Assembly (NCBI GenBank): GCA_944383515.1
Contig: CALWPV010000094.1
Span: 1 to 43,114 of the forward strand
DNA from: an uncultured Clostridia bacterium
GTDB lineage: Bacteria; Bacillota; Clostridia; Lachnospirales; Bianqueaceae
Reading direction: 5' to 3'
DNA: 43,114 bases
Shown here: piece by piece, positions 19,741-20,761 of the stretch
Position numbering within the stretch: the stretch's first letter is position 1
Layout: each line of letters starts with the position of its first letter
Program-made: the position numbers and the translations under genes
The notes under the pieces: model-generated
The model's input: the letters and a program-made list of their open reading frames with translations, nothing else
The model's database searches: none
Told to the model about the DNA's origin: nothing

Positions 19741-19831
19741 AATACTCTTGTTTTTACCATAAGTTTGGCGTTGCACGCCAAACTTAGTAAGAAATCCTTC
19801 GGAATTCTTACGGTCGTTCTGTGTGAGTATT
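19741..19831. repeat. Branched palindromic element upstream of the sirtuin gene
   Basis: An outer AATACTC (19741-19747)/GAGTATT (19825-19831) pair encloses two hairpins: AAGTTTGGCG (19761-19770) with CGCCAAACTT (19776-19785), perfect over 10 bp, and GTAAGAAATCC (19787-19797) with GGAATTCTTAC (19801-19811), one mismatch. TTTTACCATA occurs at both ends. It could be a structured leader of the sirtuin mRNA or a palindromic intergenic repeat. Confidence 0.6.
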
Positions 19832-19988: not shown

Positions 19989-20152
19989 GGGAGCTACAAG
20001 CTCCAGAATGGAGGAATCGTGTGAAAATTCAGCTCGAATAGCTGATTTTTCACACAGTTATTTGTGCCGAAGCGCCACAAATAACCTCTTTCGCAGGCGC
20101 GAATCTTAAATTCGCGCCGCGACCTCCGCGCTAAAGCGCTTCAGAACGGAGG
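19989..20152 (+). repeat. Series of five hairpins in the leader of the TetR gene
   Basis: Five inverted repeats follow one another: GGAGCT/AGCTCC (19990-20004); a 16-bp stem with one mismatch (20019-20034 with 20040-20055); GTTATTTGTG/CACAAATAAC (20057-20066, 20076-20085); GGCGCGAAT/ATTCGCGCC (20096-20104, 20110-20118); and CCTCCG/CGGAGG (20123-20128, 20147-20152). The last arm is the ribosome binding site of the TetR gene. Together with the branched element this fills the 448 bases 19710-20157, in which no gene is supported. Confidence 0.72.
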
Positions 20153-20157
20153 ATACT

Positions 20158-20676
20158 ATGCAACAAAAAAACAAAGACAACAAACTGGCCCTCATTGAAG
20201 CCCTTCCCAAGCTGCTGCCCAAAATGAAATTTAATTCCGTAACCATTAAAGACATTACGGATAAAGCCGGCGTCTCCAGACTCACCTTCTATCACAACTT
20301 TGTAGGTAAAGAAGATATTATGAACCAGTATTATGATCATATGCTGGATCTATATTTTGAAACACAGGAAGACGCGTCCTTTCCGGATTTTTCCTCGGCC
20401 ATGATCAGCTGCCTAAGTTACTGGCAAGACCGCGCTAACGATCATACCATTGAGCTTTCCGAGCCATTTGACAACTTGCTGCTGGCTCCGCTGGGCCGCT
20501 ACATGAAATGGATTTTAAATCGAACGCAAATGACCGATCGTTTATCTTCCCAGCAAACCGAATTTTTAATTGGCGGCTTTTTCCAGGTTATGCTCCAGTG
20601 GCTGAAAAACCCCGGAGAGCGCAGCGCTGCCGATGTCGTTCAGGATTTACTGCGCATATTACAGCTGCCCGCCTAA
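20158..20676 (+). CDS. TetR/AcrR family transcriptional regulator
   Basis: A 172-residue regulator. The N-terminal helix-turn-helix is KFNSVTIKDITDKAGVSRLT followed by FYHNFVGKEDI, the standard TetR DNA-binding pattern, and the remainder is a helical ligand-binding domain of about 115 residues with no recognisable ligand signature. The ATG at 20158 has GGAGG 5 bases upstream, held in a hairpin arm. Adenosine deaminase follows after 85 bases that repeat part of this gene's leader, so the two could be regulated alike. Target genes are unknown; autoregulation through the upstream palindromes is possible. Confidence 0.88.
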   Translation: MQQKNKDNKLALIEALPKLLPKMKFNSVTIKDITDKAGVSRLTFYHNFVGKEDIMNQYYDHMLDLYFETQEDASFPDFSSAMISCLSYWQDRANDHTIELSEPFDNLLLAPLGRYMKWILNRTQMTDRLSSQQTEFLIGGFFQVMLQWLKNPGERSAADVVQDLLRILQLPA

Positions 20677-20700
20677 TCCGGTGTTACTTCGGAACGCAGG

Positions 20701-20754
20701 GGCAAACCTTTGGTTTGCGCCGCGATCTCCGCGCTAAAGCGTTTTGAAACGGAG
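20701..20754 (+). promoter_or_regulatory. Leader element of the adenosine deaminase gene, related to the TetR leader
   Basis: GCAAACC/GGTTTGC (20702-20708, 20712-20718) is followed by CTCCG (20727-20731) that pairs with CGGAG (20750-20754), part of the GGAGG ribosome binding site. The segment from CGCCGCGA through the start codon is closely similar to 20115-20160 before the TetR gene, including the shared CTCCGCGCTAAAGCG. Confidence 0.65.
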
Positions 20755-20761
20755 GATGATT

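Follow-up and report, generated by a model that had tools for sequence, protein, structure and literature searches.

The window analysed here, a 43,114-nucleotide stretch of DNA from an uncultured Clostridia bacterium, carries a gene for a TetR-type regulator, with a run of hairpins at 19989-20152 directly upstream. An earlier note on this DNA claimed five inverted repeats in front of the TetR gene, and all five can be located in the sequence (Table 1). The region 20006-20155 has a predicted fold of -66.4 kcal/mol (z = -6.95), and 0/200 dinucleotide shuffles are equally stable. The promoter proposed for this leader, TTGCTT-16-TACAAT, stands up in one half: TACAAT is a good -10 hexamer with TGA before it (a possible extended -10), but TTGCTT scores 3/6 and a consensus scan returned no sigma-70 site. 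The suggestion that the leader belongs to no known family agrees with a search of the Rfam 15 covariance models, in which neither the window nor its relatives gave a match at the gathering score or at a relaxed threshold.

The repeat proper begins at 20019; the first, 6-bp hairpin is part of a separate upstream unit with its own Shine-Dalgarno sequence (SD). The element in the window extends from 20019 to about 20153 and consists of four hairpins, HP1, HP2, HP3 and HP4, together with an SD, all lying between the native SD and the native start codon. The new SD (20148-20152) ends 5 nt before the TetR ATG at 20158. Judged by its sequence, the upstream unit (the 19990-20004 hairpin with CCAGAATGGAGGAA) looks like an older, shorter member of the element family, whose SD spacer was entered by the window copy. 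An unusual CAGAAYGGAGGA variant is common to the upstream unit and the 3' end of the window copy. The general order of the dispersed element, a unit of 135-140 nt with four ordered hairpins, is native SD, a few nt, HP1 to HP4 ending in GGAATGGAGG, about 5 nt, and then ATG.

Table 1. Features of the TetR-type gene leader and its surroundings (positions in the window)
Feature	Positions	Strand	Description
Inverted repeat 1	19990-20004		6 bp
Inverted repeat 2	20019-20055		16 bp, one mismatch
Inverted repeat 3	20057-20085		10 bp; 13 bp with one mismatch
Inverted repeat 4	20096-20118		9 bp; 12 bp with flanking CGC/GCG
Inverted repeat 5	20123-20152		CCTCC/GGAGG around GCGC-TAAA-GCGC
Upstream unit	19990-20018	+	hairpin GGAGCT-ACA-AGCTCC, then CAGAATGGAGGAATC; from sequence
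Native SD (GGAGG)	20010-20014	+	in upstream unit; now faces the element
Element-borne GTG and upstream ORF	20021-20041	+	6 codons (MKIQLE, stop TAG); 6 nt past native SD
HP1	20019-20055	+	16-bp hairpin; conserved A5/T5 tract; terminator-like upper half
HP2	20057-20085	+	apical loop CCGAAGCGC (20067-20075), one pseudoknot half
HP3	20092-20121	+	variable, optional hairpin
HP4	20123-20152	+	anti-SD CCTCC 20123-20127; inner stem GCGC/GCGC; new SD GGAGG 20148-20152
Pre-SD strand (GCGCTTC)	20136-20142	+	pairs with HP2 loop 20069-20075 (pseudoknot) or, via GCGC, with the HP4 5' arm
TetR-type regulator gene (PF00440)	20158-20676	+	ATG 20158; now served by the element SD
Partial copy (HP3 and HP4 with SD)	20695-20756	+	before adenosine deaminase gene, ATG 20762

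Distribution of the repeat

A search of the 2.3-Mb genome of origin found about 40 places that match the leader, mostly over the greater part of its length. In this search the places are 79-92% identical to the leader. The copies show 83-91% identity to the window copy and mostly 93-100% to the consensus, so that the expansion looks recent. At least nine lie at contig ends, several of them starting at contig base 1, in keeping with assembly breaks in repeats. The last hairpin and SD alone occur at about 50 sites of the same genome within 3 mismatches, compared with none for the reversed pattern. Most of the five-hairpin run in the window corresponds to a single copy of a dispersed repeat of ~140 bases that had not been catalogued and has probably spread among gut-type Clostridia. 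Two readings of the earlier note, stacked palindromic repeats and a structured element not seen before, were judged right: there is no Rfam match, and the stems, whose loss in relatives the note had said would speak against it, are conserved and covary there.

The genes behind the copies are unrelated and include, by names assigned by eye from the translations, hsp20, thrC, valS, ddl, thrS, mnmE, hfq, sigG, thiG, hisA and TetR. No function common to the genes downstream of the copies was found. Because the element is dispersed, with about 40 copies before unrelated genes, a leader dedicated to the TetR gene is excluded. The note had also proposed that the hairpins may serve the TetR regulator as operators, and palindromes directly upstream of the regulator gene would fit such a role; however, these palindromes recur before about 40 unrelated genes and their loops covary with distant strands, which leaves the operator reading unsupported and hardly credible. 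The sole shared target gene seen between genera is a valS-like gene, which stands behind the element in both G000 and G018 (L024:1105-1241 and L061:1478-1617).

Across the order, the element is present in 23/392 genomes (E <= 1e-6), all in the family of the source genome (f1) and in a second family, f6; with at most 8 candidates scored per genome, the copy numbers are minimum values. The carriers include the named Candidatus Eisenbergiella merdavium (Lachnospiraceae), which suggests that f6 corresponds to the Lachnospiraceae. In a class-wide sample of 391 genomes, the positives were the source genome and two others of the same order, with none found outside the order. No element was found on plasmids, and exact element patterns gave no match in IMG/VR. 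Three unannotated "Bacteriophage sp." records (L288, L289 and L290; MT837007.1, MT836788.1 and MT838414.1) contain the element beside genes of chromosomal type, an enolase-like gene among them, and appear to be bacterial scaffolds under a wrong label.

Position between SD and start codon

The position of the element relative to genes was counted in 82-83 extracted matches from about 24 genomes, one of the 83 being an antisense artefact. In 68/81 copies, the 12 nt that precede HP1 contain an SD core, compared with 3-11/81 in 12-nt bins further upstream. At the other end, a start codon follows the element's SD by 4-13 nt (mostly 5-6) in 80/83 matches, with an open frame in 77. Save for a few copies with no gene right behind, the copies lie in the sense orientation of the gene.

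Evidence for insertion at this position came from two species of genus g63. At one site, G323 is empty (GGCAGGGGAATA^ACATGG, within the longer context ...GGCAGGGGAATAACATGG...) and G250 is filled (GGCAGGAGAATA[142 bp]ACATGG), with flanks that are 98% identical. The difference is a clean 142-bp insertion between the native SD and the ATG. Both new junctions preserve the 6 nt that natively separate the G-rich SD core from the ATG. A further pair, in which G250 is empty (GAGGAGATGCCCATGG) and G323 is filled (GAGGAGATA[element]TTATGG; flanks 91%), agrees with the first. The target duplication is either absent or a 2-bp TA, and the TA could equally be an end of the element. In G000, the left and right SD contexts of one copy resemble each other no more than those of different copies do. 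Across genomes, about a quarter of the copies sit inside an older unit of the element family (among them the window copy, L021, L022, L028, L041 and L228), which explains the flank variants that such copies share.

The element also brings a start codon. NTG stands directly before the HP1 A-tract in 72/79 copies (GTG 46, TTG 20, ATG 6), a count weakened by the shared ancestry of the copies, and two copies have CTG. The distance from the native SD to this NTG has a mode of 6 nt. Through the start codon that its 5' end supplies and the SD at its 3' end, an inserted element gives the old SD a new start codon and the old start codon a new SD. The upstream ORF created in this way ranges in length from 3 to more than 100 codons. 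In the source genome it has 6 codons (MKIQLE in the window copy; consensus MKNQLE); G340 and some of the copies in G001 have about 20, and in several copies of G314, G300, G289, G359 and G364 it runs for 44-48 codons up to the start of the gene itself. Its peptide shows no conservation, suggesting a role for the act of initiation rather than for the product. The A5/T5 part of HP1 is nearly invariant, and the upper stem with T5 scores as terminator-like. The element-borne start codon may plausibly serve to let a ribosome on the old SD unfold HP1.

The element is probably a mobile-type structured unit that spreads by insertion between SD and start codon and rebuilds the SD/start pair at each junction; we infer its mobility from the repeats and the empty sites. 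Insertion at translation-initiation sites would be tolerated because the pair is rebuilt. Descriptions of small interspersed repeats usually assign them no fixed place relative to the gene start. This family holds one exact functional position, from SD to start, and rebuilds the signal on both sides, so that each insertion would rewire the translation initiation of a gene without destroying the gene.

Covariation and competing pairings around the SD

In an alignment fitted to the structure, 94.4% of the cells of HP1, HP2 and HP4 are paired and 29/34 modelled pairs have two-sided changes; 0/500 shuffles were as good, and slid controls were far lower. An unfitted MAFFT alignment (A1) gave the same picture of covariation. 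The pseudoknot that joins the HP2 loop to the pre-SD strand provides an independent test because it is absent from the structure model. Pairing of each loop with its own partner scores 21.97, compared with 16.5 (sd 0.5) for shuffled partners (0/5000); z is 10.9 over 63 unique elements from 24 genomes and about 7 with one element per genome. Two-sided changes are seen in 4/8 pairs, and the types include CCGAAGCG:CGCTTCGG, CCGGAGCG:CGCTCCGG, CCGCAGGCA:TGCCTGCGG, TCTGAGCG:CGCTCAGA and CCGAGC:GCTCGG. The window copy retains 7 bp of the pseudoknot (20069-20075 with 20136-20142).

The pre-SD strand has a second partner in the 5' arm of HP4, with a pairing score of 10.95 compared with 7.05 for shuffled strands (0/1000). 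Two conserved partners for one strand are what a switch would show, or could alternatively reflect ordered folding or a single-stranded DNA form. Sequestration of the SD is conserved in part (76% of cells), and the predicted pairing of the native and element SDs is intermediate, at about 0.6 each.

Strong covariation, a pseudoknot beside the SD, competing pre-SD pairings, and fixed position and orientation would also be expected of a true cis-regulatory RNA, a riboswitch- or thermometer-like translation switch that was recruited to a regulon and whose copies are kept for regulation. This explanation is quite improbable: the downstream genes have no common function, the full element was found at 0/9 orthologous sites in the sister species G001, and the copies within a genome are too similar for old regulatory sites. 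The regulon reading was rejected on the grounds that the downstream genes are unrelated and the sites are not shared with the sister species. Regulation is possible as a by-product of the mobile unit.

In the preferred model, that of an inserting unit, the element is probably a mobile, structured cassette that splits SD from start and modulates translation. Ribosomes on the old SD would translate the short upstream ORF (MKIQLE-stop in the window copy) into the terminator-like HP1, and the downstream gene would be translated from the new SD, with exposure of that SD set by HP4 versus the pseudoknot. If the pseudoknot and HP4 do form a switch, gut-type bacteria would have a single translation control over dozens of unrelated genes in each genome.

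Candidate mobilisers and related repeats

Inspection of the ends of the element, (TA)GTGTGAAAAAT at the 5' end and GGAGGAT(TA) at the 3' end, found no terminal inverted repeats. Hairpin ends, no clear duplication and no inverted repeats make a Y1 transposase (IS200-like or RAYT-like) the best candidate by anatomy. The source genome encodes a single-copy RAYT-like Y1 transposase of 263 aa beside an ftsY-like gene (L083:1441-2229, G000:C52). Relatives of this protein are present in 87/392 genomes of the order and in 1/19 element-positive f6 genomes, and no Y1 (IS200-like) transposase was matched in 12/19 positive f6 genomes, which are 98-100% complete. REP/RAYT-type mobilisation was rejected on these two counts in the positive f6 genomes.

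A broader version of the same idea is that the repeat is a MITE/REP-like DNA element that an IS transposase (e.g. Y1/HUH) mobilises in trans, and that its SD position reflects only selection against other insertions. The repeat is dispersed, non-coding and rich in hairpins, its insertion is clean with a possible junction TA, and the RAYT-like gene is at hand in the source genome. We nevertheless regard this explanation as unlikely, given the lack of terminal inverted repeats and the distribution of Y1 and RAYT proteins; moreover, insertions just 5' of an SD should be tolerated at least equally, yet none were seen. For the preferred inserting unit, no mobiliser emerged among the Y1 proteins: it may no longer be present, it may work from another place, or movement may proceed through RNA. 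A mobiliser outside the usual suspects makes the mechanism a testable question. A bolder and more tentative proposal is an altogether new type of mobile element with translation-initiation sites as its target: it might recognise the SD and start context, split the site, and carry a start codon and an SD that repair both halves, placing one shared pseudoknot switch over dozens of unrelated genes. Recognition would perhaps involve pairing of internal CCTCC/CCCC with target GGAGG/GGGG, possibly at the RNA level.

Among known systems, the element shares with MITEs (RUP, Correia elements) a short, non-autonomous repeat with clean insertion and secondary structure, but it has no terminal inverted repeats and a target duplication of none or <=2 bp, and it is always gene-oriented. 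It resembles REP/RAYT and IS200/IS605-type elements in its hairpin ends, its lack of inverted repeats or a clear target duplication, and a target beside the left end; in contrast to these, a Y1 transposase does not track with it. Like SD-sequestering leaders (ROSE-type thermometers, translational riboswitches), it has several hairpins, the last of which holds the SD, but it is dispersed before unrelated genes, has no Rfam match and has a different, lineage-wide pseudoknot. In its many similar, dispersed, non-coding copies, with presence that is polymorphic between relatives, it belongs with the small interspersed structured repeats (BOX-like in a broad sense).

The closest in kind, in that broad sense and set beside the element by description, are the BOX repeats of Streptococcus pneumoniae, which are small, interspersed, modular and non-coding, contain several stem-loops, occur in many copies and can alter expression of their neighbours (PMC3049150). 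The element is likewise small, interspersed, modular and non-coding, and forms hairpins with a predicted RNA structure in many copies. BOX repeats are also described between convergent genes, and the SD/start-splitting position, own start codon and SD, and covarying pseudoknot set the element apart from BOX as described there (PMC3049150). The MRSC-65-2 mobile/repeat motif is also a structured nucleic acid with dozens of copies per genome, but it consists of one long stem with UYCCGG repeats and occurs in diverse phyla (PMC11109978); identity with it was rejected because of that single long stem. A literature search found no earlier description of the element family, with subscription papers outside its reach, so that a prior description is possible. 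The family appears new within the small interspersed structured repeats, and there is a real chance that the insertion mode itself is new.

Some copies (L066, L112 and L230) contain an additional small hairpin inside the element (e.g. CAGGATACGAAGTATCCTTG), and these inner hairpins suggest modular growth. A second dispersed family lies in the leader of a sirtuin-like gene in the window (19752-19811, - strand); it consists of two adjacent hairpins (~60 nt) and has roughly two dozen copies in the source genome, some of them close together.
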